Positions 1,980 to 19,938 of a stretch of 24,096 bases of DNA are shown in pieces. The stretch lies in IMG/VR virus record IMGVR_UViG_3300018080_002687, positions 1-24,096 of that record; one strand, given 5' to 3'. The stretch's first letter is position 1, and each line of letters opens with the position of its first letter. The notes beneath the pieces were generated by a model. That model was given only the letters and a program-made list of their open reading frames with translations, was not told where the DNA came from and did no database searches. The translations under genes were made by a program, and so were the position numbers. The stretch is from a virus.

Positions 1980-2083
1980 AATGTCCAATTTGTCATATTA
2001 AACTAATAGAATCAAAATTATCTGGTGTAATGTTTGAGTGTCCTCAATGTTCATATCAAATTTTAAAATTAAAAAATAATTGA
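1976..2083 (+). CDS. Mini zinc-ribbon peptide
   Basis: A 35-residue frame from TTG 1976, overlapping the previous TGA (TTGA). It reads KCPICHIKL, about eleven residues, then FECPQCSY: two CPxC knuckles 16 residues apart, the classic rubredoxin-like or zinc-ribbon layout. Such free-standing ribbons are common in phage accessory regions and may bind nucleic acid or a partner protein. No in-frame ATG precedes the motif, so TTG is the only good start. The ribosome site is weak, so coupled re-initiation after the upstream stop is likely. Its own stop overlaps a TTG that may start the radical SAM gene. Confidence 0.45.
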   Translation: MKCPICHIKLIESKLSGVMFECPQCSYQILKLKNN

Positions 2084-3009
2084 CATTTATAATGCGACAT
2101 AATAAAAATTGTAAAATACTGATGAAGAAATTAAAATATTACATATATCGGTTGCGATGGATATTAGCACCATTTTTTAAAAATGGCCTTTTAACTCATA
2201 TAGACATTGAGCTTAACACTTCATGTAATCAAAAATGCCTGTCTTGCTGGCACTCCTCACCTGACACTAAACCCATAAATCTCAGAATGAACAAGAGTAA
2301 ATTATCTCACCTTTTAGTAGGTGCCAGCCTGGCAGGCATTAAAGCTGTTAAATTTAATTTACGGGGTGAGCCGTTATGCTCTACAGATTTAAAGCTTGCA
2401 GTAGAACTTGCTAACAAGATTGGATATACTGACATAATGATAAATACAAATGGTATTTTATTAGATAAAAAGAAAGCTATTGAACTTGATAGGGCAGGCC
2501 TTACAACTTGTATTATATCGGTTGACAGTTTAGAGGCTAAAACATATTGCAAAATTCATGGTTGCGATATGGCAGATTATGGAAATTTAATAAGCAATCT
2601 TGACGATTTAAGAAAATATAAAGTAGCAGGACTTATAAATTTTAATATTAAATTAAACTTTCATATCAATAAAATAAATGAATCTGAAAATGTTGAAAAG
2701 TATAAAGATGTTTTTCCGATGTTTGATGTAATAATAAGATATACAGAAAATAGGAAAGGTACTCATATTGCAATAGAACGACAGCGGAAAAGGAAAAGAG
2801 CTTGCCCACATATGAAGAGACGGCTAACTGTTATGGCTGATGGCAAAATATATCCTTGCTGTGTGTGTTATGATGAGCCTAAAGATATTTTACTGTCAAA
2901 AGATTTTAAAGAGGCATTACAGAAAAGAAAAAATTTAATAAAAAATTATAGAAAGGGATTTTTGCCAGTTTCTTGTCAAAATTGTACTTCAGGGGATATA
3001 TATAAATGA
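2080..3009 (+). CDS. Radical SAM enzyme with SPASM-like C-terminus
   Basis: A 309-residue protein (from TTG 2080; ATG 2092 and ATG 2122 are alternatives that keep the whole domain). The radical SAM motif is Cys49-x3-Cys53-x2-Cys56 (CNQKCLSC) after a beta strand HIDIELN, with the GEPL glycine-rich motif at 96-99 and a TNG strand near 124. These bind the 4Fe-4S cluster and S-adenosylmethionine. The C-terminus carries further Cys (242, 260, 261, 263, 299, 302) around MADGKIYPCC, typical of SPASM/twitch auxiliary-cluster domains. No precursor peptide is evident, and the genes downstream are sugar enzymes. A tailoring role on a sugar or glycan is therefore more likely than peptide maturation, but the substrate is unknown. 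The start overlaps the zinc-ribbon stop as TTGA. Confidence 0.85.
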   Translation: MTFIMRHNKNCKILMKKLKYYIYRLRWILAPFFKNGLLTHIDIELNTSCNQKCLSCWHSSPDTKPINLRMNKSKLSHLLVGASLAGIKAVKFNLRGEPLCSTDLKLAVELANKIGYTDIMINTNGILLDKKKAIELDRAGLTTCIISVDSLEAKTYCKIHGCDMADYGNLISNLDDLRKYKVAGLINFNIKLNFHINKINESENVEKYKDVFPMFDVIIRYTENRKGTHIAIERQRKRKRACPHMKRRLTVMADGKIYPCCVCYDEPKDILLSKDFKEALQKRKNLIKNYRKGFLPVSCQNCTSGDIYK

Positions 3010-4310
3010 TTGAATGTGGCTTAATCTTAACCTCAAGGATAAAATCTTCCAGGTTGGAAAATAAAGTTTTACAGAAAATTAACGGCAAGCCAGCAATTGA
3101 AATTTTACTTGATAGACTTATAAATAATAAATATCCTGTTATCCTTGCAATACCTGAAAACAGTGATAATGATGTTTTAGCAGAAATAGCAGAGCAGAAA
3201 GGGATTGAAGTTTATAGGGGTTATGATGAAAGCCCACTACATAGATTGACTTATTGTGCGATAGAAAATGATTTTAAAAATGTTGTAAGAGTGACACATG
3301 ATGATATTTTAATTGATCAAATTGTTTTAATGAATCAAATTAAAATGCATATACGGGGCAATAAAGACTATACATTTTGTAGAAAAATTCCTGATGGGTG
3401 CGCTGCTGAAGTTATTAGAACTGACATACTAAAAGAGGTAGTTGACTTAGTGGGTGATAAGCCAGTTGAATTTATAAGTTATTACATTAAAAATAAATAT
3501 GATACTTTTGAATATTATCCAGATAAAGAATTTCAATATCCTTTTAGACTGACAATGGACTATGAAGAGGATTTAATGTTGCTCAGGCTTATTTTTGCAA
3601 GCCTTGCCGAGCCTATTGGTACATTAGATATAATTAACTTTTTAAAACGGCATCCATATTTTCTAAATATAAATCGATTGCCGGCAATAACAGTATATAC
3701 ATGTAATTATAATACATCAGATTATATAATTGATGCGATGCAATCAGTTCTTAATCAGACATTTCAGGATTATGAGTATATAGTTATTGATGATTGCTCT
3801 ACTGATAATAGCATGAATATTATAACAGAATATTATGCTAAATTAAAAAGACCAGATCAGGAAAAAATAAAAATATTAAGGAATGATAAAAATATAGGAT
3901 TGCCTGCATGTTGTAATAAAGTTTTAGAAATGGCAAGAGGTAAAAATATAATTCGGCTTGATAGTGATGACACAATGAATTCGGATGCTTTACAAAATAT
4001 GTTTGATGAAATGAAATTAAACCAGGCTCAGGCTGTAATTACTGCATATAATAATACTGATGAGAATTTAAATATAATAGATACTATAAATAAAAATATG
4101 TGGCACCCTGGATGCGCTTTAATTAGTACATGGGCGGCAAATGAATTAAAATATCAAGAAAATTTAGAGTTCATGGAAGGAAAAGATTTTTATGAACGAT
4201 TTAGGCAAAAATATAAATGGTCTTTTTATGATAAGCCAATGTGGAATTATCGGAAAAGGCCAGGACAAAAAACTCAACAAAAAGAACACCCACTGAATAA
4301 AGGAGAATAA
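3006..4310 (+). CDS. Bifunctional cytidylyltransferase-glycosyltransferase (SpsF/NeuA-KdsB-like + GT2)
   Basis: A 434-residue two-domain protein. Residues 1 to about 222 are a nucleotidyltransferase of the SpsF/KdsB-like type. The nucleotide loop is SRIKSSRLENKVL (9-21), with GKP at 27-29, VTHDD at 96-100 in place of the usual metal-site RxTxDxP, and RLTMDYEEDL at 181-190. This family makes CMP-activated acidic sugars. Residues 228-434 are a GT-A family 2 transferase: TCNYN start, VIDDCSTDNS at 260-269 and the DSDD metal/nucleotide motif at 319-322. A GKDFYERF at 392-399 sits where GT2 enzymes carry the catalytic base. It would couple sugar activation to transfer in the cytoplasm. ATG 3006 overlaps the upstream stop (ATGA). 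The acceptor is unknown. Confidence 0.85.
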   Translation: MIECGLILTSRIKSSRLENKVLQKINGKPAIEILLDRLINNKYPVILAIPENSDNDVLAEIAEQKGIEVYRGYDESPLHRLTYCAIENDFKNVVRVTHDDILIDQIVLMNQIKMHIRGNKDYTFCRKIPDGCAAEVIRTDILKEVVDLVGDKPVEFISYYIKNKYDTFEYYPDKEFQYPFRLTMDYEEDLMLLRLIFASLAEPIGTLDIINFLKRHPYFLNINRLPAITVYTCNYNTSDYIIDAMQSVLNQTFQDYEYIVIDDCSTDNSMNIITEYYAKLKRPDQEKIKILRNDKNIGLPACCNKVLEMARGKNIIRLDSDDTMNSDALQNMFDEMKLNQAQAVITAYNNTDENLNIIDTINKNMWHPGCALISTWAANELKYQENLEFMEGKDFYERFRQKYKWSFYDKPMWNYRKRPGQKTQQKEHPLNKGE

Positions 4311-4311
4311 A

Positions 4312-5259
4312 ATGAAAATACTCGTAACAGGTGGCAAGGGCTTTATTGCCTCAGCCTACATTAAAGAAATTGAAAAAGAAGGCCATGAATGTATTATTTA
4401 TGATTTACCAGAAAATGATATTTGTGATAATATCGGGTTAAGGCTTTCAATTCAGAAAGTTGATATTGTTGCACATTTTGCGGCGATAGCAGACTTAAAC
4501 GTTTCAATTGCTGAGCCTGATCTTAATTTTAATGTTAATGTCTCTGCAACTTATAATATTTCTAAAATATGTGCAGAATATAACAAAGGATTATTATTTA
4601 TTTCTACGTGTTGTGTGTATGGAAATACACTTGATAATGTTGAAAAAGAATTTTATACCAATCCGATGGCAGCCGAGCCATACGCAACAAGCAAGATTGC
4701 AGGTGAAGCTATTATCAGGGGCATGCCTAACCTGGAATATTGTATATTGAGAATCGGCACAGTTTATGGATTGGGAATGAGAGATAATTTATTTACTGGT
4801 ATTGTATTTAATAGACTAAGAGATAATGAAACTGTTTATATTGATGGAGATGGCAAGCAAACAAGACAGCTTGTTTTTATTGATGATTTGATTGATGGGA
4901 TTAAAAGGGCAACAGTAAGATTTAATAATTTGCATGGTGAGATTATAAACTTATGTGGAATAGAAAAGACCTCAGCGGTTGAAACTCTTGATATAGCTGA
5001 AAAGATTGTAGGAAAAAAAGCACACAGGGTGCACAGAGAACAGCGCTATGGTCAGACTTTTGAAGAAAACATTAGTATTGAAAGGGCTTATCAATTATTA
5101 GGCTGGCACCCGAAAACTAAATTTTTCGATGGAATGAAATATACTTTTGAAAATGACGCGAGGTGGAATGGCACAGGATTTAATGCAGATCAGTCTGCAG
5201 GCATTCGAGCTGCAGCTTTACAAGATACCGACAGGAAATCTGAAAACATTATTGCGTGA
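4312..5259 (+). CDS. NAD-dependent sugar epimerase/dehydratase (extended SDR)
   Basis: A 315-residue extended short-chain dehydrogenase. The Rossmann motif is TGGKGFIA (6-13, with Ala in place of the usual third Gly), AHFAAIAD lies at 54-61, Ser98/Thr99 are active-site candidates, and Tyr124-x3-Lys128 (YATSK) is the catalytic pair. The substrate-binding signature DGDGKQTRQLVFIDD spans 178-192. The family acts on nucleotide sugars (4-epimerases, 4,6-dehydratases, decarboxylases); which reaction cannot be read. The start follows AAAGGAG at ideal spacing. The domain should end near residue 285. The last 30 residues are not family-like and overlap another frame that looks coding, so the tail may be a read-on extension. 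It probably feeds the same glycan pathway as its neighbours. Confidence 0.85.
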   Translation: MKILVTGGKGFIASAYIKEIEKEGHECIIYDLPENDICDNIGLRLSIQKVDIVAHFAAIADLNVSIAEPDLNFNVNVSATYNISKICAEYNKGLLFISTCCVYGNTLDNVEKEFYTNPMAAEPYATSKIAGEAIIRGMPNLEYCILRIGTVYGLGMRDNLFTGIVFNRLRDNETVYIDGDGKQTRQLVFIDDLIDGIKRATVRFNNLHGEIINLCGIEKTSAVETLDIAEKIVGKKAHRVHREQRYGQTFEENISIERAYQLLGWHPKTKFFDGMKYTFENDARWNGTGFNADQSAGIRAAALQDTDRKSENIIA

Positions 5260-5440
5260 TATTTACGATTTTAAATGGAGTAAAGGAAAATATTTTTCTG
5301 ATGAACAGATAATTGAGCTTGAACGGAAAGAATCTAAAATTGTAAAAGAACTTATGAGGCGCAAGTATCTTACCAAATCTGATTCTGGAGATTTCCAGAA
5401 ACATTTAAATTCAATGAATTTCAGGAAGAAAACATTTTGA
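5168..5440 (+). CDS. Hypothetical small charged protein, start uncertain
   Basis: A 90-residue frame if started at ATG 5168. TTG 5147, ATG 5153 and TTG 5252 are alternatives; the last has AGGAAA at 5232-5237 but long spacing. The body (LKTLLRDIYDFKW, then an Asp/Glu/Lys/Arg-rich amphipathic helix around ELERKESKIVKEL) looks like a genuine helical protein. No family is recognised. It overlaps the epimerase tail by about 90 bases in another frame, and its TGA overlaps the TTG start of the synthase gene (TTGA), so it sits in the translational chain. GGAAG at 5424-5428, within its end, is that next gene's ribosome site. Function unknown. Confidence 0.45.
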   Translation: MAQDLMQISLQAFELQLYKIPTGNLKTLLRDIYDFKWSKGKYFSDEQIIELERKESKIVKELMRRKYLTKSDSGDFQKHLNSMNFRKKTF

Positions 5441-6150
5441 TTATTGCTGGAAATTGTTCTTTTATCGATATATCTGATATTCCTCTTGTATGGAATACAG
5501 CAAAAGTACTCAGAAAGCATATTGATTATTTCCGTTGCAAGGTGTTTCTTGGAGGTACCAGGCCAGATAGATTTGTAAAAGGAATTGAAGAAGATGGAAT
5601 GGAACTTTTACAGCGGATTGACGAATTGGTTGTTCCTGTAATGACAGAAATTCAGACAGAAAGACATATTGATATATGCAAGGGGAATGTTAGTTCTATC
5701 TGGATTGGCGCCAGGAATTGTCAGAATTACGGTCTTATGCCTGAAATTTCAAAATGGAAAGGTGAAGTATTAGTCAAGCGTCATCCAGGCATGACAATAG
5801 ATGAGACAATTGGGATGTATGATATTTATAATCAGATATACAATAAGCAAATCTATGTTATAGAAAGGGGAATAAATACATTTGACAGGCAAGAAGATTC
5901 CAGGTGGTCACCTGATTTAAAAGGTGTTATAAGAATTAAAAATGAAAGGCCAGATATATTTGATAGACTTGTAATTGATTGTAGTCATTCTGCAGGGAAA
6001 AGAGAATATATAAAAGACGTTTATAATGCATTTAAGGCTATAGGATGTCAACATTATATGTTTGAGTGCACTCTTACAGGTAGAAGCCGAACTGATGACA
6101 GGCAAATGTTAAATCCTTTGCAGTTGTGGGATATATTAAATGTTAATTGA
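5437..6150 (+). CDS. DAHP/KDO8P synthase-family enzyme (type I-beta-like)
   Basis: A 237-residue TIM-barrel enzyme that should condense phosphoenolpyruvate with an aldose (phosphate) to give a 3-deoxy-ulosonic acid. Landmarks: IIAGNCS at 2-8 (family AGPCS), PVMTEI at 67-72, IGARNCQNY at 90-98, VLVKRHPGMTI at 111-121, IERGINTFD at 142-150, DCSHSAGKR at 181-189. The four expected metal ligands are present as Cys7, His184, Glu210 and Asp220 or Asp221. The IGARN-QN and ERGI-TF blocks favour the DAHP-synthase I-beta branch over KdsA. The acceptor-binding loop is unusual: GGTRPD (39-44) stands where family members have KPRTSP or KANRSS. It is slightly short for the family. TTG 5437 is the start (GGAAG upstream, TTGA overlap). 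The product is likely the acid activated by the neighbouring cytidylyltransferase. Confidence 0.85.
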   Translation: MIIAGNCSFIDISDIPLVWNTAKVLRKHIDYFRCKVFLGGTRPDRFVKGIEEDGMELLQRIDELVVPVMTEIQTERHIDICKGNVSSIWIGARNCQNYGLMPEISKWKGEVLVKRHPGMTIDETIGMYDIYNQIYNKQIYVIERGINTFDRQEDSRWSPDLKGVIRIKNERPDIFDRLVIDCSHSAGKREYIKDVYNAFKAIGCQHYMFECTLTGRSRTDDRQMLNPLQLWDILNVN

Positions 6151-6655
6151 AATTAAAAAAGATAATATTGAAATTAGAAGTTTGTCACAAAAACCGATAG
6201 TAAAAAAGTTTTTAGAATCAGGATTAAAGCTAAAAGTTTTTGAAAAAATACATGCAGGATATAAATTAGTTGACTGGATATATAAAGAGCTTAAAATAAA
6301 TGATAATGAAATATATATAAATAAATTTTGGGCTTATAAATTTTGCGAGCAGGAAGGTCTTGAAAAAAAGGAATTTATAAATTTTCAAATTTTAGCTTTT
6401 GAAATAAAAGAAATAAATGATAGTTTGAATTTTATCAAAGTTTTTAAAGATAATAAAAGATATGCCCCTAATTGGGAAACGACGGCAAAACGACTTGGCA
6501 GAGATACAAAAAAAATGATTAAATATTATAAAAGGATCCATCCAACAACACCAGGAGAATGTAATTACACACAAATAAATCCATTGGCGGGTTATAGTAA
6601 ATTATGTTGTGTATGTGGGAATAAAGATATTTTATTACTGAGGAGTTTAAAATGA
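6140..6655 (+). CDS. Hypothetical protein with C-terminal CxxC
   Basis: A 171-residue protein not assigned to a family. ATG 6140 overlaps the end of the synthase gene by 11 bases. The N-terminal half is beta/helical with many Lys/Ile (EIRSLSQKP, LKVFEKIHAGYKLVDWIYKEL), and the middle is rich in aromatic and charged residues. The C-terminus has a small HPTTPGECNYTQINP loop followed by KLCCVCGNKD, a single knuckle. One zinc would need further ligands, perhaps the Cys of GEC and the His of HPTT. Its stop overlaps the methyltransferase start (ATGA). That gene begins with a zinc finger, so the two products may act together, but this is inference. Confidence 0.6.
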   Translation: MLIEIKKDNIEIRSLSQKPIVKKFLESGLKLKVFEKIHAGYKLVDWIYKELKINDNEIYINKFWAYKFCEQEGLEKKEFINFQILAFEIKEINDSLNFIKVFKDNKRYAPNWETTAKRLGRDTKKMIKYYKRIHPTTPGECNYTQINPLAGYSKLCCVCGNKDILLLRSLK

Positions 6656-7956
6656 TTAAATTAGAAAGTTGTCCAATATGTGAACAAAATAACTGGCATG
6701 ACTTGGATTATTTAAGAGATCAAAAATATTGGTATAATAGGGATATACGAGAAGATAAAGAGCCAGTTGGGTTTAAAATATGCAAAGAATGTGGATTTGT
6801 TACATATGACTATATAGAACTTGAAAGGCTTTCTGAATTTTATGATTTGCAGAGACAGATAATGTCACCAAATAATATTGTAACATGCAACAGAAAAAAC
6901 GAATATCATAAAAAGTTTTTAGGCAATATAATAAAATCAGAATGGAAATGTTTAGATGTAGGATGCGCCCAGGGTGCATTTTTAGATTTATTACATAATT
7001 ATTATAAAGTACCGATATCCAATTTGTATGGCACAGAGTGGTCGGATGCATTCAGAAAATTTGGCAAATTTGAATATAATTTAAATATAACTAAAGAAAT
7101 AGACCAATCAATACAGTATGATTTTATTAGTTATTATCATGTTTTAGAGCATGTCCAGTGGCCTGATGAAGAAATGGAGTTGATAAGTAAACTATTAAAA
7201 GATAATGGATATTTATATATTTCAGTTCCTACATTCCTGGACATATTAGAAGAGCCGTCAGGTGCAATATGTGATAACTTTGAAAATTTATATCACTTAA
7301 ATCATGTAAATGTATTCACAAAGCAATCATTTAAGAATTTACTGCATAAATACGGATTTAAAATAATACAGGACAATGACCACCTATACGGCTATACTGT
7401 ATTATGTCAAAAAGGAGAGATTCAAGAAATAGTAAAAGAAAAATATCTGCAGCATATCGACACTTTGGAAAAGCAAAAAAAAGCTATTGAATTATTGATA
7501 ACTAAAAAATCAGATGAGGCATTTAAATTATATCCTAAATTTCCGGATGCATATGTATTTTTTAGTCTCAATAAGGATAACATGAAAGAATACGATGCAC
7601 AGATAAATTTATTAAATAAATGTTTAGAAGTATGTCCGGATGATACTAAGATATTGAGTCAAAAAGGAAAAGTATTGTTTCAATGGGATGAAAACGATTC
7701 AAAAAAACAATATTATTCAAATAACATAAAAGCAGCAGAAAAGATATTTCTTGATCTTACAGAACGAAAGCCAGGGCAGGAAGATAGTTATTATTTCCTT
7801 TCGCTTATAGAAGGAAAATATAAAAAGAATTATGACAAAGCAGTTGAATATCTTAAAACATTTATTAAAATAAATCCTAATAAGTTTACAGAAGGATATA
7901 ATTTAATCTCATATTTTTGGAAAGAAAAAAATGAATTCAATAATAATATTCTTTAA
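6652..7956 (+). CDS. Zinc-finger SAM methyltransferase with TPR-like C-terminal region
   Basis: A 434-residue protein. The N-terminal Cys4 finger is C7xxC10 and C44xxC47 (CPIC and CKEC), as found before the catalytic domain of sugar C-methyltransferases and related enzymes. A class I methyltransferase follows: motif I LDVGCAQGAF (101-110), motif II acidic position GTEWSD (127-132), and HVLEHV (163-168) with NGYLYISVPT (185-194). From about residue 285 on, helical repeats with TPR-like features occur (DAYVFFSLN, CLEVCPDDTKILSQKG, AVEYLKTFIKINPN), probably for protein-protein contact. It would methylate a sugar or glycan made by the cassette. ATG 6652 overlaps the previous TGA. The combination with a TPR-like tail is uncommon to my knowledge. 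Confidence 0.8.
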   Translation: MIKLESCPICEQNNWHDLDYLRDQKYWYNRDIREDKEPVGFKICKECGFVTYDYIELERLSEFYDLQRQIMSPNNIVTCNRKNEYHKKFLGNIIKSEWKCLDVGCAQGAFLDLLHNYYKVPISNLYGTEWSDAFRKFGKFEYNLNITKEIDQSIQYDFISYYHVLEHVQWPDEEMELISKLLKDNGYLYISVPTFLDILEEPSGAICDNFENLYHLNHVNVFTKQSFKNLLHKYGFKIIQDNDHLYGYTVLCQKGEIQEIVKEKYLQHIDTLEKQKKAIELLITKKSDEAFKLYPKFPDAYVFFSLNKDNMKEYDAQINLLNKCLEVCPDDTKILSQKGKVLFQWDENDSKKQYYSNNIKAAEKIFLDLTERKPGQEDSYYFLSLIEGKYKKNYDKAVEYLKTFIKINPNKFTEGYNLISYFWKEKNEFNNNIL

Positions 7957-8093: not shown

Positions 8094-8357
8094 ATGCCAT
8101 TCAAAAAAGGTGACCCGAACATAAACAGGCAAGGCAGACCGAGAGAAGGAACTACTCTTACAGATATATTAAAAGAGAAACTTGATAAAGATGATTTTAT
8201 TAAAAGGCTTATTGACCTTGCAAAGTCTGGAAACACTAAAGCAATAGAGATGATATATGATAGAATCGACGGCAAGCAAAAAGAACAGATTGAACACTCT
8301 ACAGATAATTTTGAAATTATAGTCAAGAGTATAAAAAAGAATGAGTCTACAGATTGA
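8094..8357 (+). CDS. Putative small terminase subunit (DUF5681-like)
   Basis: An 87-residue protein beginning with FKKGDPNINRQGRP, the lysine/glycine 'KGxPxNxxGRP' N-terminus of DUF5681-type proteins. These sit directly upstream of large terminase genes in many tailed phages and prophages. A helical segment follows (LTDILKEKLDKDDFIKRLIDLAKSG), then MIYDRIDGKQKEQIEH, also a family hallmark. In packaging it would bind phage DNA and guide the large subunit. It is short for a small terminase. The ATG is preceded only by A-rich sequence and the hairpin at 8058-8080. The large terminase starts inside its last 17 bases. Confidence 0.7.
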   Translation: MPFKKGDPNINRQGRPREGTTLTDILKEKLDKDDFIKRLIDLAKSGNTKAIEMIYDRIDGKQKEQIEHSTDNFEIIVKSIKKNESTD

Positions 8358-9567
8358 ACTAATAGACCCGCATCAATTAGAATTTGTTCATAGTAAAAAA
8401 AGATATGTTTTAAATTCTGGCGGGGTTGGTTCGGGTAAAACATACAGTATTGTTATTAAAACACTTTTGTTAATTGCCAATTATCCTGGCATATTTATAT
8501 TGATCGGTGCTCAGACATATCCATTGTTAAGAGATACAACATTAAGAGAGTTTTTAAATGTTGTCCCTGATGATATCATTCAAAGCTACAATAAAACACA
8601 ACAGCATTTTATATTTAAAAATAAAAGTGAAGTTATATTCAGGTCTTTTGATGACCCGAATAAATTAAAATCTCTAAATTTAGGCGCCTGCGGAATTGAA
8701 GAAATGACTGACATCAATGAAGAAATATTTAAAATGATTCGTACAAGGATGAGACAGGATAAAATGCCTGGTTGTATATTTGGTGCAACTAATCCAGGTA
8801 CTTTTGGGAATTGGGTATATAAAACATTTATTGAAAGTCCGATAGATAATAGCGAAGTAATATATTCAGTGTCTGCAGACAATTTATATTTGCCTGGTGA
8901 ATATCTTAAAGACCTTGAAAGCATGAAAAAGACTAATCCCGAATATTATGAAAGAATGGTCATGGGCAAGTGGGGAATGCTTGAAGGTTTTATATATAAT
9001 CTACCTATCAGGCAGCGGATAAAAGAATTACCAGACAAAAAACTAATACATAGATGGATTGCAGGACTTGACTTTGGATTTACTCATCCTACAGCAATGG
9101 TAATTATAGGAGTAAGAGAAGATATTTATTATATATATGATGAAGTGTATCAGCACAAAATGACAAGCTCAGACATAATAAACAAAGTACAAGAAAAGAT
9201 GCTTGAATATAACATTGATATTATATATTGTGATTCTGCCAGGCCTGAGATAATAGAAGACCTAAACAGGAGTAACATTCCAGCACAGGATAGTGTTAAA
9301 GATGTATTTGACGGAATTATGTATATTAAAGGCCTTATCAATGATGAGAAGTTATATGTAAATCAGGATTGCAAATATACATTAAGAGAATTTGACAGTT
9401 ACATATGGGATGCTAAAAACACGGTAAAGGAAGTACCGCTAAAAGTAAATGATGATGCTATGGATGCAGTCAGATATTGCATATACTCGGACGCAAAAAA
9501 GAACAGTTACTCAGGGATTGAATTTGATTCTAATGATGGTCGTGTTACGATAGAAATGGATTTTTGA
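8341..9567 (+). CDS. terL: Terminase large subunit (ATPase-nuclease)
   Basis: A 408-residue packaging motor. The N-terminal ATPase has Walker A GGVGSGKT (27-34) and a Walker B/catalytic Glu region CGIEEMTD (117-124). A coupling-type motif GATNPG lies at 148-153. The C-terminal RNase H-like nuclease has three acidic clusters: GLDFGFTHP (Asp244), IYCDSARPE (Asp298) and NDDAMDAVRY (Asp371/372 and Asp375), all expected metal ligands. Length is normal for the SPP1/XtmB-like (Terminase_3/6) group. It translocates DNA into the prohead through the portal encoded next. The start overlaps the small subunit gene. A promoter lies immediately after its stop, separating the packaging genes from the head genes. 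Confidence 0.95.
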   Translation: MSLQIELIDPHQLEFVHSKKRYVLNSGGVGSGKTYSIVIKTLLLIANYPGIFILIGAQTYPLLRDTTLREFLNVVPDDIIQSYNKTQQHFIFKNKSEVIFRSFDDPNKLKSLNLGACGIEEMTDINEEIFKMIRTRMRQDKMPGCIFGATNPGTFGNWVYKTFIESPIDNSEVIYSVSADNLYLPGEYLKDLESMKKTNPEYYERMVMGKWGMLEGFIYNLPIRQRIKELPDKKLIHRWIAGLDFGFTHPTAMVIIGVREDIYYIYDEVYQHKMTSSDIINKVQEKMLEYNIDIIYCDSARPEIIEDLNRSNIPAQDSVKDVFDGIMYIKGLINDEKLYVNQDCKYTLREFDSYIWDAKNTVKEVPLKVNDDAMDAVRYCIYSDAKKNSYSGIEFDSNDGRVTIEMDF

Positions 9568-14575: not shown

Positions 14576-15502
14576 ATGCCACAAGGTTCAACCAGAGTAA
14601 GTAAGCCGCTCACTAACATGAGTGTGCATTATATGAACGAAGAATATATTGCAGGTAAAGTTTTACCTGATATAGCAGTTAAAAATGAATCCGATCAATA
14701 CTGGGTATATAATTCAGATAGAAGATTGGAAGATACTTATAGAGCGAATGGAGCACTTGCAAATCAGGCTACATGGGATGCATCGACAAGTTCTTATATT
14801 GTAAGAGAACATTCTTTAAAAGATGTTATCACAGATAGGGATTATAATAATGCTGATTCTGCACTACAGCTTGAAAAGCACACAATGGAAAATTTGATCG
14901 ATAAAATACTAATGAGGCAAGAGTATGAAGTACATAAATTACTTTTTACTACTACCACATTTAGCAACAATGCAACTTTGACAAGTGCGACAAGTTGGAA
15001 ATATCACACAACTACATCGGCACCGATTGCAAATGTACTAAGTGCAACTGGTTATATAATCGAACAGTCAGGTAAAAGACCTAACAAAATGGTTATGAAC
15101 TGGGATGTATTCGCAGCACTAAAAGAGAATCCAAATGTGTACGGTAGGATTCAATATGTAGAAAGAGCGATAATCACAGAGCAAATTCTTGCCAGCCTTT
15201 TTGATGTGCAGCAGGTTCATGTTGGTACTGCTGTTTATAATTCAGCACAGGAAGGTCTTTCTGATGACCTCGGTGAAATATGGGGCGGTGATTGTGTACT
15301 TGGATATTTTAAAGATAATGCAGGCTTAAGAGATGCTTCAGCTGCTGGAATATTCAGAGTTAAACAATATGGCTCACCATACAAAGTTAAGAAATGGAGA
15401 GAGGAAGATGTAGAAGGTAATTACATTGAAGTACAGTCAATGTATGTACCGAAAGCAATAGCGACCTCTTGCGCATATCTGTTTAAAACAGCTGCGCTGT
15501 AA
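14576..15502 (+). CDS. Major capsid protein
   Basis: A 308-residue protein with a very strong ribosome site (GGAAGGAGG). It follows protease, scaffold and decoration genes, the standard place of the coat gene. Sequence features fit a HK97-fold coat of the Mu T/P22-adjacent type: N-terminal arm (TRVSKPLTNMSVHY), charged E-loop-like segment (YNSDRRLEDTYRANG), long spine helix (ALQLEKHTMENLIDKILMRQEYEVHKLL), then SGKRPNKMVMNWDVFAALKENP and EQILASLFDVQQVHVGTAVYN typical of coat P-domains, and a C-terminal beta strand region. No cleavage site can be set with confidence. A stem-loop follows the stop. Confidence 0.85.
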   Translation: MPQGSTRVSKPLTNMSVHYMNEEYIAGKVLPDIAVKNESDQYWVYNSDRRLEDTYRANGALANQATWDASTSSYIVREHSLKDVITDRDYNNADSALQLEKHTMENLIDKILMRQEYEVHKLLFTTTTFSNNATLTSATSWKYHTTTSAPIANVLSATGYIIEQSGKRPNKMVMNWDVFAALKENPNVYGRIQYVERAIITEQILASLFDVQQVHVGTAVYNSAQEGLSDDLGEIWGGDCVLGYFKDNAGLRDASAAGIFRVKQYGSPYKVKKWREEDVEGNYIEVQSMYVPKAIATSCAYLFKTAAL

Positions 15503-17151: not shown

Positions 17152-17652
17152 ATGGCGGTAGATTTAACAAGCATATTGGGCTCACTTGAAAACTTATTAC
17201 ACAAAAATAATACAGTGTCGAGTAGTAGCGATATCTCAAACAGCCTGAATAAAAGAGTGCAAGTATTTTATAAGGGCAGCAGGGGGATGAGCAATAAACA
17301 GCCTGTACCTAAAACACTTTATCCATGCGTATTCGTAGAGCTTGGAAATAAGACAGAAGAATTTATTACAGTTGGCAATAATGCCAAAAGGGATATGAAT
17401 ATTGAATTTGATATAGTGCCTGTAGTTGATTATGGGATAGGTACATTTGATTCCAGGGAAAATTCAGATATCGAATTGATTAAATTATCTCAGAATATAG
17501 AAAGTTTAATCAGAGCTAATATAACATTAAGCAGTACAGTTCATCAGGCTTTAATTATAAATAGCACTTACGATGTAGAGCTTAAAGCCGATGATACTTA
17601 TATAAGTGTATCAAGAATCACATTACTGACAAAATTATATAATCAGAGGTAA
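17152..17652 (+). CDS. Putative tail terminator/completion protein
   Basis: A 166-residue protein immediately after the gpG-like gene and two bases before the Maf-like gene. Segments such as RVQVFYKGSRG, LYPCVFVELGNKTEEF, DMNIEFDIVPVVDYG, ELIKLSQNIESLIRANITL and YISVSRITLLTKLYN give the alternating helix and strand pattern of tail terminator proteins (lambda gpU or Mu gp37 class), which form a ring at the head-proximal end of the tail tube. Assignment rests on position and fold look; no strict motif is present. A weak GAGGT upstream is its ribosome site. Confidence 0.6.
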   Translation: MAVDLTSILGSLENLLHKNNTVSSSSDISNSLNKRVQVFYKGSRGMSNKQPVPKTLYPCVFVELGNKTEEFITVGNNAKRDMNIEFDIVPVVDYGIGTFDSRENSDIELIKLSQNIESLIRANITLSSTVHQALIINSTYDVELKADDTYISVSRITLLTKLYNQR

Positions 17653-17654
17653 CA

Positions 17655-18680
17655 ATGCTAAATAAGAATGAAGTTTTAGAGCAATCAAAAAGCGCGCTCA
17701 GTCAATGGGAACCAATCTGGCGAGCTAATGCACAAAAGAATGGTGAATTATATCGAACACTTGGAACAACGCATCAAGACTTATTATATGTAGGCGCAGG
17801 TCGTAAACTATTATGTATCGGAACAGGTCCTTCACTTGAAAAGAATTTAGATATACTTGAAAAATATAAAGATACTACTCAGATTGATATAGCATGCATT
17901 GATAAAGCATTTTCTATTTTAATGTCAAAAGGAATTAAGCCAGATTATGTTTATATTGCGGATGCTGCGGTAAGTTATGAAAAATATTGCAAGCCTTATG
18001 TCGATCAGACTGAAGATATAGTTTTAATCTCAAACATTACTGCTCAATCGGATTGGGCAGCAAATTGGGAAGGTCTTAAATTTTTCTACGTTAACAAAGA
18101 TAATATTGAAAGTGAAAAAATATTTATTGAGATATCAGGCTGCAAAGAAGTTATTCCGGCAAGTTCAAATGTTGGCAATACCGTAGTAGTTGCCAGTACT
18201 CAGTTATTAGGATATGATGAATACTTATTATTAGGATATGATTTTTGTTGGGGTGATGATGAAAATTATTACGCAGGTGAAGACAGCATAAAACGTCATT
18301 GGATGAAACACTTAAATATAATAGACAATATAGGAAGATTGGTGAATACAAGTCAGAATTTATTTTTTTCGGCCAGGTGGTTACAGGATTTTCACGATAT
18401 GGTAAAAGGTCAGGGGATGAAAATATATAATTGCTCAGGTCAGGGGCTTTTATATGCAGAAAAAAGAAATCTTGAAAATGAATTGAAAAATACTACAGTA
18501 AGAGAATTAAGCGAAAAAGAAAAACAAGAAATACTACAAAAGAGAATGAAGCAGGTTATTATAGATTCTAAGGGTGGAAATGATGCGCTTAATAATGCGC
18601 TTCAGAATTGTAATGTATCTAATATAATTATAAATCATATACCTCAGGAGGTAATAGAATGGCTGCAACTAAACAACTAA
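17655..18680 (+). CDS. Maf/DUF115-like (MptE-like) putative glycosyltransferase
   Basis: A 341-residue protein resembling the central domain of motility-associated factor (Maf) and MptE-like DUF115 proteins. It has LCIGTGPSLEKNLDIL at 53-68 (nucleotide-binding GxGPSLxxN loop), VYIADAAVS at 99-107 with Asp103, SSNVGNTVVVASTQLLG at 170-186 and LLLGYDFCWG at 191-200, the family's 'SVGxTAxxxAxxLG...LxGxDxxx' block, and NCSGQGLL at 259-266. Maf proteins transfer nonulosonic acids such as pseudaminic or legionaminic acid from CMP-sugars to flagellin Ser/Thr. Here the gene lies between tail-completion and tail-tube genes, two bases from its neighbour, with AGAGGT as ribosome site. The acceptor may be a virion protein. 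The C-terminal 70 residues are helical and of unknown role. Confidence 0.8.
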   Translation: MLNKNEVLEQSKSALSQWEPIWRANAQKNGELYRTLGTTHQDLLYVGAGRKLLCIGTGPSLEKNLDILEKYKDTTQIDIACIDKAFSILMSKGIKPDYVYIADAAVSYEKYCKPYVDQTEDIVLISNITAQSDWAANWEGLKFFYVNKDNIESEKIFIEISGCKEVIPASSNVGNTVVVASTQLLGYDEYLLLGYDFCWGDDENYYAGEDSIKRHWMKHLNIIDNIGRLVNTSQNLFFSARWLQDFHDMVKGQGMKIYNCSGQGLLYAEKRNLENELKNTTVRELSEKEKQEILQKRMKQVIIDSKGGNDALNNALQNCNVSNIIINHIPQEVIEWLQLNN

Positions 18681-18898
18681 AATATGTAGATCATAAAAAA
18701 ATATGGTTTCCATCTTTATTTTTTTATCGGGGAGGTCTTGCGCTTCCGAGTGGAGACAATATAATAAAAGTTACTGAACACGAAGCGGAAAATTTACTTA
18801 AAAGAAAAAACGGTAATAAATCTTGTTTTGAAGAGATCAAGGGAACAAGGGCTAATACTGTTATCGAAACACCTGAAATTAAGGAGGATAATGAATAA
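18659..18898 (+). CDS. Small tail-region hypothetical protein
   Basis: A 79-residue protein with AGGAGG at 18647-18652 and a start inside the end of the Maf-like gene (22-base overlap). It reads KIWFPSLFFYRGGLALPSGDNIIKVTEHEAENLLKRKNGNKSCFEEIKG. The 'G-D-N-I-I-K-V-T-E-x-E-A-x-x-L-L' block looks like small proteins found before tail sheath or tube genes, the same slot as Mu gp38 (DUF2635), but similarity to that family is not clear. It ends by TAATG overlap with the tube gene. Function unknown, structural role likely. Confidence 0.55.
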   Translation: MAATKQLKYVDHKKIWFPSLFFYRGGLALPSGDNIIKVTEHEAENLLKRKNGNKSCFEEIKGTRANTVIETPEIKEDNE

Positions 18899-19938
18899 TG
18901 GGAATAGGAAACGGAACACCTAAACTGGGATATGATAGTGTAATAGGTATTGCACAAGAGACCGCTTATGGAACTTTTGTGACTACTACAGCGAGTTTTA
19001 TAGAATTTAATACAGAATCAATGAAACATAGTAGAGAAGAAATAAAGCTTGAATCTGTAAACAATTCGAGAGATTACACAAAAAGAATTATTGGAAATGA
19101 AACTGTTGAGGGAAGTATTGAAGCTGATCTTGACGTAAATGCAGACGGCCTTGTGTACATTATGAAGCAGGCTATGGGCGGCACTGTAGGAATAAGCACA
19201 ATATCTGCAACAGAATTTGTACATACTCTTAATCCTGGAAACATGGAAAGCAATAAAGGAACTTCAACGGCATCAGATATTAAAAGCCTTTCCATTGCAG
19301 TAAGAAAAGGAGATGCGAATACATGGAATGCGGCAGGATGTAGAATAAACTCGCTCACAATTAAAGGAGAAGTTGGCGCACCAGTAATAATGACAGCTGA
19401 AATAATAGGCCAGTCAATGAGTATAAGTTCAACTATCGGCGGGGCTGTAAGTTATAGCGATGTCACTCCGATGTATTTTAAAGGCGTAACAATTAAAACA
19501 AGCGATACAATGACAAGCGCAAGTTTAACGGCTGAATGTTTTACAGCATTCGAATTTACTATCAATAATAATCTTGACGGTGACCAGAGATGTCTTGGAA
19601 GTAGAAATATTTCTGTATTGCCTCCAGGAAAAAGGGAGGTAATGTGTAAGCTAACACAGAGATTTGACACAACAACAGCATATGAAAGATTCATCCAGAA
19701 TACAGCAACAGCTATTCAGATAATTATTGATTCTGAAACTACTTGCGGAAGCACTGCAGGAAATACAACTTATTCATGTATTATTAACATTCCTCAAGCT
19801 TATTGGAATAGTAACATGCCTGAAGTTGGCGGGAATGAAGTTTTAATACATGAGATTGAAGCGAGTGGCATGTATAACTCCGAATATGGATATGCTGCAC
19901 TAATACAAATAAGAAACGATACGGCTAATTATTTCTAA
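18898..19938 (+). CDS. Major tail tube protein
   Basis: A 346-residue protein starting GIGNGTPKLGYDSVIGIAQETAYGTFVTTTASFIEFN. The 'GxxxExxYGTxxT' N-terminus, then NNSRDYTKRIIGNETVEGSIEADLDVNADGLVYIMKQAMGG, is the standard N-half of tail tube proteins. The remainder is beta-sandwich in pattern, with CRINSLTIKGEVGAPVIMTAEIIGQ and a matching second half, as in tube proteins of phages with hexameric ring stacks. It is followed by the frameshifted chaperone and the tape measure, the conserved order. GGAGG lies upstream of the TAATG start. No sheath gene precedes it, so the tail is probably non-contractile. Confidence 0.85.
   Translation: MGIGNGTPKLGYDSVIGIAQETAYGTFVTTTASFIEFNTESMKHSREEIKLESVNNSRDYTKRIIGNETVEGSIEADLDVNADGLVYIMKQAMGGTVGISTISATEFVHTLNPGNMESNKGTSTASDIKSLSIAVRKGDANTWNAAGCRINSLTIKGEVGAPVIMTAEIIGQSMSISSTIGGAVSYSDVTPMYFKGVTIKTSDTMTSASLTAECFTAFEFTINNNLDGDQRCLGSRNISVLPPGKREVMCKLTQRFDTTTAYERFIQNTATAIQIIIDSETTCGSTAGNTTYSCIINIPQAYWNSNMPEVGGNEVLIHEIEASGMYNSEYGYAALIQIRNDTANYF

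Follow-up and report, generated by a model that had tools for sequence, protein, structure and literature searches.

Glycosylation of phage virions and Maf-type glycosylation of bacterial flagellins are known separately. In the Maf-type systems of Campylobacter, Clostridium botulinum, Geobacillus and Magnetospirillum, a glycosyltransferase with a PF01973 domain is encoded in the same genome as a phosphoenolpyruvate (PEP)-condensing synthase and a cytidine monophosphate (CMP)-sugar synthetase, and its gene lies near that of a filament-like structural protein; the PF01973 family includes the Maf glycosyltransferases and archaeal MptE. The Caulobacter FlmG system performs soluble cytoplasmic O-glycosylation with pseudaminic acid from a NeuB-type donor pathway, and FlmG, which is not a Maf, unites in one protein a glycosyltransferase and a TPR module that binds flagellin (PMC7591256). 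In mycobacteriophages, glycosylation of the particle is influenced by phage genes (Freeman et al. 2023, cited in PMC10568470) and relies, as far as known, on phage glycosyltransferases (e.g. PMC11256854); it is not known to involve an ulosonate synthase, a CMP-sugar synthetase or a PF01973 protein. Here we describe IMG/VR virus record IMGVR_UViG_3300018080_002687, a phage genome fragment of 24,096 bases (the window), in which a cassette of sugar-related genes lies directly 5' of the terminase gene and a PF01973 (DUF115) gene lies among the tail genes. We think it probable, at about two chances in three, that these genes amount to a cytoplasmic system by which the phage O-glycosylates one of the proteins of its own virion.

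The locus shares the PF01973 domain, the synthase and synthetase, and the placement beside a structural gene with the Maf-type systems, but is phage-encoded among tail genes with no flagellin, has a single-domain transferase candidate, mostly uses a synthase resembling 3-deoxy-D-arabino-heptulosonate 7-phosphate (DAHP) synthase rather than NeuB, and includes an extra radical SAM protein, a methyltransferase with a TPR region and a small open reading frame (ORF). The proposed system resembles that of FlmG in being soluble and cytoplasmic and in having a TPR module and a donor pathway of NeuB type, although here the TPR is on the methyltransferase and the proposed transferase is the PF01973 protein. 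Stenotrophomonas phage DLP4 is reported to have a lysis-module ORF with a NeuB_NnaB conserved domain, which is a different context (PMC6469090). The first-pass annotation knew of no described phage system with this combination, and we likewise found neither such a combination nor a phage Maf/DUF115 system in the open-licence literature, although one may be described elsewhere. Among INPHARED phages there is no match to the DUF115 protein; matches to the DAHP-like enzyme are weak (at most about 30% identity), those to GT2 are generic, and there is one weak methyltransferase match.

Cassette organization and pairing with the PF01973 gene

Families were assigned to the window proteins by profile matches to Pfam, PHROGs and NCBIfam. 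PHROG matches place the late structural genes in the order terminase, portal, protease, major head (14576-15502) and tail genes, all downstream of the cassette, and on this gene content the record derives from a tailed phage; no tRNA genes were found. The cassette (2122-7956) is a tightly packed plus-strand operon encoding, from 5' to 3', a radical SAM/SPASM protein, a cytidylyltransferase fused to GT2, an SDR epimerase, a small ORF, the DAHP-fold enzyme, a 171-aa protein and a methyltransferase (Table 1). All of the enzymes named in the first-pass annotation are present where it placed them, with Pfam matches for radical SAM, CTP_transf_3 plus GT2, Epimerase, DAHP_synth_1, methyltransferase and PF01973, and two genes that it did not list, the small ORF and the 171-aa protein, lie among them. 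Its description of an operon-like run before terminase is borne out by the gene junctions, most of which overlap (by 4 to 92 nucleotides) or abut, and by conservation of the run as a syntenic block.

The DAHP-like, DUF115, cytidylyltransferase-GT2 and methyltransferase proteins served as queries to gather relatives from IMG/VR, whose contigs were read gene by gene. The cassette is syntenic across 15 contigs from distant phages (the window, G001, G002, G003, G010, G011 and G014 to G022). Identity to the DAHP-like enzyme of the window falls from about 58% to 24%, and the arrangement must therefore be an old one. In most contigs the cassette lies 5' of terminase (before TerS), but it is between TerL and portal in G011, and several members have a large terminase with no recognisable kinship to that of the window; the cassette therefore behaves as a unit. 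The variation in large terminase is modular exchange. Between G001 and G002 the ratio of nonsynonymous to synonymous substitution rates (dN/dS) is 0.036 for the radical SAM gene, 0.06 for the cytidylyltransferase-GT2 gene and 0.05 for the methyltransferase gene, as for working proteins. This purifying selection, together with synteny in distant phages, indicates that the cassette is not a chance assembly.

Eleven contigs reach both the cassette and the tail region (the window, G002, G003, G010, G011, G014, G016, G017, G018, G021 and G022), and all 11 have both DUF115, at one common tail position, and a PEP-condensing synthase. A cytidylyltransferase domain is visible in ten of them, the exception being G003, which begins inside the fusion gene so that the domain lies off the contig end. 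The remaining cassette contigs (G001, G015, G019 and G020) stop before the tail region. A random distribution of the Maf-like gene relative to the cassette, which had been named as grounds for abandoning the idea, is thus not what is seen. DUF115 contigs with no visible synthase include five that begin at or after the portal gene (G004, G007, G008, G009 and G013), two with under 0.9 kb upstream of the large terminase (G005 and G006), and G012, where only 1.3 kb of sequence precedes the methyltransferase and a PseF-like cytidylyltransferase is encoded. The single real exception to the pairing is the 52-kb G023, which has DUF115 and a lone cytidylyltransferase (L098/L099, contig positions 10038-10799 and 17310-18164) and in which no synthase was found; this phage perhaps draws on a host sugar acid.

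Table 1. Coordinates of the cassette genes and of associated late genes in the window.
Feature	Position	Strand	Evidence and remarks
Radical SAM/SPASM protein	2122..3009	+	PF04055 Radical_SAM 1.8e-8, 35.2 bits (cut-off 29.5)
SpsF/KdsB-like cytidylyltransferase fused to GT2	3006..4310	+	PF02348 9e-11; PF00535 1e-25
SDR-family NAD-dependent epimerase/dehydratase	4312..5259	+	PF01370 Epimerase 4e-35
Small conserved ORF, cassette marker	5168..5440	+	Overlaps SDR end by 92 nucleotides
DAHP-synthase-fold PEP-condensing enzyme, proposed 3-deoxy-ulosonate synthase	5437..6150	+	PF00793 (DAHP_synth_1) 1e-20
171-aa protein	6140..6655	+	Between DAHP-like and methyltransferase genes; cassette membership uncertain
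Zinc-finger class I methyltransferase, C-terminal TPR-like region	6652..7956	+	PF13489 (Methyltransf_23) 3e-20; TPR_8 1e-6
Large terminase	8341-9567		Types vary among phages with common portal-to-tail block and cassette
PF01973 (Maf/DUF115/MptE-like) protein, proposed protein glycosyltransferase	17655..18680	+	PF01973 2e-21; 341 aa
Tail protein, candidate acceptor	18898..19938	+	phrog_290 2e-39; near DUF115 gene, beyond a small ORF; neighbourhood conserved

The candidate synthase and transferase

The DAHP-fold enzyme matches the type I-beta DAHP synthase profile (PF00793, 74 against 25.5 bits), and in alignment with the Pyrococcus DAHP synthase it retains the metal-binding Cys, His, Glu and Asp as well as the GAR, KR and ERG residues. 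It shares its TIM-barrel fold and its metal and PEP-binding residues with both type I-beta DAHP synthases and 3-deoxy-D-manno-octulosonate 8-phosphate (KDO8P) synthases, to which its predicted model matches about equally (Z about 15), but has no chorismate mutase domain and is linked to a cytidylyltransferase. In DAHP synthases the KPRTS motif binds the phosphorylated acceptor; none of the ten distinct phage sequences aligned retains either the K or the R of this motif, and the NCBIfam cut-offs for DAHP synthases are missed widely (114 against 335 and 102 against 268 bits). These phage enzymes are therefore probably not shikimate enzymes, and should use an acceptor other than that of DAHP synthases. 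Pattern scans of a bacterial genome collection, a method that can miss distant relatives, found no relative of the DAHP-like enzyme and none of the major head protein.

Four of the 15 cassette contigs (G014, G016, G018 and G019) have NeuB, with PF03102 E-values down to 3e-61, and the other 11, including the window, in whose record PF03102 has no match, have the DAHP-like enzyme; none has both. In G018 NeuB occupies the exact slot of the DAHP-like gene, with the small ORF on one side and the methyltransferase on the other; in G016 its neighbours are a GT2 and a separate CTP_transf_3 protein; and in G014 a PseF-like cytidylyltransferase is followed by NeuB (PF03102 2.8e-59) and then by a relative of the window SDR. 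Complementarity this complete would arise in one of 1,365 random assignments with these margins, a figure that is a guide only because the contigs share descent. Of all the observations, this replacement by NeuB speaks most strongly for a sugar-acid role of the DAHP-like enzyme. The first-pass proposal that the cassette supplies an activated acidic sugar gains support from NeuB standing in for the DAHP-like enzyme and from the resemblance of the DUF115 model to Maf. On a portal tree the NeuB carriers are scattered and three changes of synthase are needed (3-4 in bootstraps), without firm support. Repeated swapping on this tree was not secured, as shuffled labels do equally well in about 30% of cases.

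The DUF115 gene lies 3' of a gene in the tail-completion position (17152-17652) and 5' of a small ORF (18659-18898) that is followed by the phrog_290 tail protein gene. Its placement by the first-pass annotation as a Maf-like gene inside the tail genes holds, as its product belongs to PF01973 (MptE-like/MAF_flag10; 77.1 bits, cut-off 34.6) and its predicted model has the Maf central-domain fold, with Magnetospirillum Maf (5mu5) as the best structural match (Z 17.5 over 240 residues). The next matches are archaeal HPPK (8sd5, Z 15.3) and CstII and mammalian sialyltransferases (Z about 7-8.6, CstII about 8.6). A match to the PseD profile (4e-15) covers 231-460 of its 640 positions and scores 55 bits against a cut-off of 670. 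The protein is not filed as a Maf because it has neither the N- nor the C-terminal Maf domain, although by its modelled fold it plausibly works like one.

Other cassette genes

The first-pass annotation began the radical SAM gene at 2080, and an ORF does open there (TTG); the start is more likely the ATG at 2122, which is kept in relatives. The window protein has both the CxxxCxxC motif and the C-terminal SPASM cysteines, and Cys 49/53/56 and the C-terminal Cys cluster are invariant in an alignment with relatives; its SPASM profile score (18.7 bits) is under the 21.5 cut-off, whereas the G016 relative scores 56.5 bits. In the fusion protein the CTP_transf_3 domain (42.4 against 22.6 bits) places the cytidylyltransferase in the SpsF/KdsB/NeuA group, and the closest solved structure is the cytidylyltransferase 6oew (7e-14), followed by KdsB, although the score for the KdsB (CMP-Kdo synthetase) equivalog is 30 against a cut-off of 155 bits. 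Twelve of the other cassette contigs encode full-length relatives, and G003 has the GT2 half. The SDR is missing from G001 and G002, another SDR takes its place in G010, and it lies downstream of NeuB in G014; it is an optional part of the cassette. A GDSL-lipase/acylhydrolase-like protein, possibly a sugar O-acetyl enzyme, is encoded shortly 3' of a radical SAM gene in G014 (L037/L038, 17461-18228 of the reversed 40-kb stretch).

The small ORF family (89-115 aa) has members in 13 of the 15 cassette contigs, the window counted, and no Pfam or PHROG match. In G014 the small ORF is in the tail module and not in the cassette, and this protein may connect the two halves of the system. The 171-aa protein has no Pfam or NCBIfam match and no relative among the compared contigs, being present in the window only. 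In the methyltransferase the CxxC..CxxC and DxGCA motifs and the C-terminal region are conserved in an alignment of six phages. The G003 methyltransferase gene (L003 2560-3876) is split into two ORFs with stop codons inside the match, and is either a broken gene or an assembly error. In G012 a TnpB/IS605-like ORF, identified by eye (L035 56-1306), adjoins a cassette variant with a methyltransferase, a PseF-like cytidylyltransferase and a SPASM protein.

Proposed pathway, alternatives and significance

In the proposed system the DAHP-fold enzyme would condense PEP with an aldose to give a 3-deoxy-ulosonic acid, a step suggested by its fold, its retained PEP and metal residues, and the replacement by NeuB in sister phages. 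The SpsF/KdsB-type domain, judged by its family, would activate this acid with CTP to a CMP-sugar, while the SDR, methyltransferase and radical SAM enzymes could modify either the precursor or the product, and a further sugar may be added by GT2. Produced together with the tail proteins, the DUF115 protein would then move the CMP-sugar onto Ser/Thr of a structural protein, as Maf does on flagellin, and its fold and gene position make a neighbouring tail protein the most likely acceptor. The methyltransferase may recognise this acceptor through its TPR region, as FlmG binds flagellin through its own. Both CMP-Neu5Ac and CMP-Kdo are donors for Maf enzymes (PMC11339370), so that ulosonates of eight or nine carbons fall within the acceptable donor class.

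An activated acidic sugar could instead alter host surface glycans, in lysogenic conversion or superinfection exclusion. The GT2 half resembles TuaG, EpsE and GtrB-type enzymes, nonulosonic acids are known in O-antigens and capsules, and G002 has a recombinase-like ORF, seen by eye only; but the cassette encodes no flippase or polyprenyl-phosphate transferase, a hydropathy screen predicts no membrane segment in its proteins, and the Maf enzymes of PF01973 act on cytoplasmic proteins. Because DUF115 is fixed within the tail genes in all contigs and membrane segments are absent by hydropathy, a cytoplasmic protein acceptor is favoured, and a host-surface target is less likely, although it is the alternative that we take most seriously. 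Modification of phage DNA with the sugar seems to us scarcely credible: GT2-type and radical SAM enzymes of phages do occur in DNA-modification pathways, but no hydroxymethyl-pyrimidine, deazaguanine or other base-modifying enzyme is among the scanned proteins, and CMP-ulosonates are not known to act as donors for DNA modification.

Two further explanations would separate the synthase or the DUF115 protein from glycosylation. That the PF01973 protein is pterin pyrophosphokinase-like or structural, its pairing with the cassette being a matter of descent, accords with HPPK as second-best fold match and with G023, but Maf leads HPPK by more than 2 Z units, the further matches include CMP-sialyltransferases and the PseD profile, and the pairing persists through the change of synthase type and the relocation of the cassette; we consider it improbable. 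Slightly more doubtful still is the view of the DAHP-like gene as an auxiliary metabolic gene that supplies host aromatic amino-acid synthesis and has unrelated neighbours. The DAHP_synth_1 family of the enzyme, and DAHP synthases as its closest solved relatives, would fit such a role, but the lost KPRTS residues, the distant DAHP synthase cut-offs and the presence of NeuB in its place in four sister phages argue otherwise.

Several points weigh against a virion O-glycosylation system. The case for it is drawn from genes, comparisons and predicted models, and the DUF115 model has a predicted local distance difference test (pLDDT) value of 62, low although higher in the core, for a protein that is not a three-domain Maf. 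GT2 enzymes normally use UDP-, GDP- or TDP-sugars, and the CMP-sugar scheme leaves the GT2 donor unexplained, as it leaves the radical SAM protein and the small ORF without a definite role. The well-supported branches of the portal tree force one synthase switch only, several DUF115 contigs do not extend far enough to reveal a cassette, shared descent could explain much of the co-occurrence, and G023 departs from the pairing. More tentatively, with somewhat less than even confidence, we suggest that this phage lineage carries a whole route from PEP to a protein O-glycan, in which a DAHP-fold synthase minus the phosphate-acceptor motif, interchangeable with NeuB, makes a previously undescribed ulosonic acid and a minimal single-domain Maf-like transferase modifies a tail protein.

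If the proposed system is correct, phages can supply every stage of the glycosylation of their own proteins, from making and activating the donor to transferring it, and viral tails carry a counterpart of flagellin-type glycosylation. The exchange of DAHP-like for NeuB synthases would then point to a new branch of sugar-acid synthases whose product is directly testable, and a Maf-like transferase of minimal size would be of use for O-glycosylating proteins. A further question would be what the sugar does for the particle, whether it aids stability or assembly or acts in contacts with the host surface.

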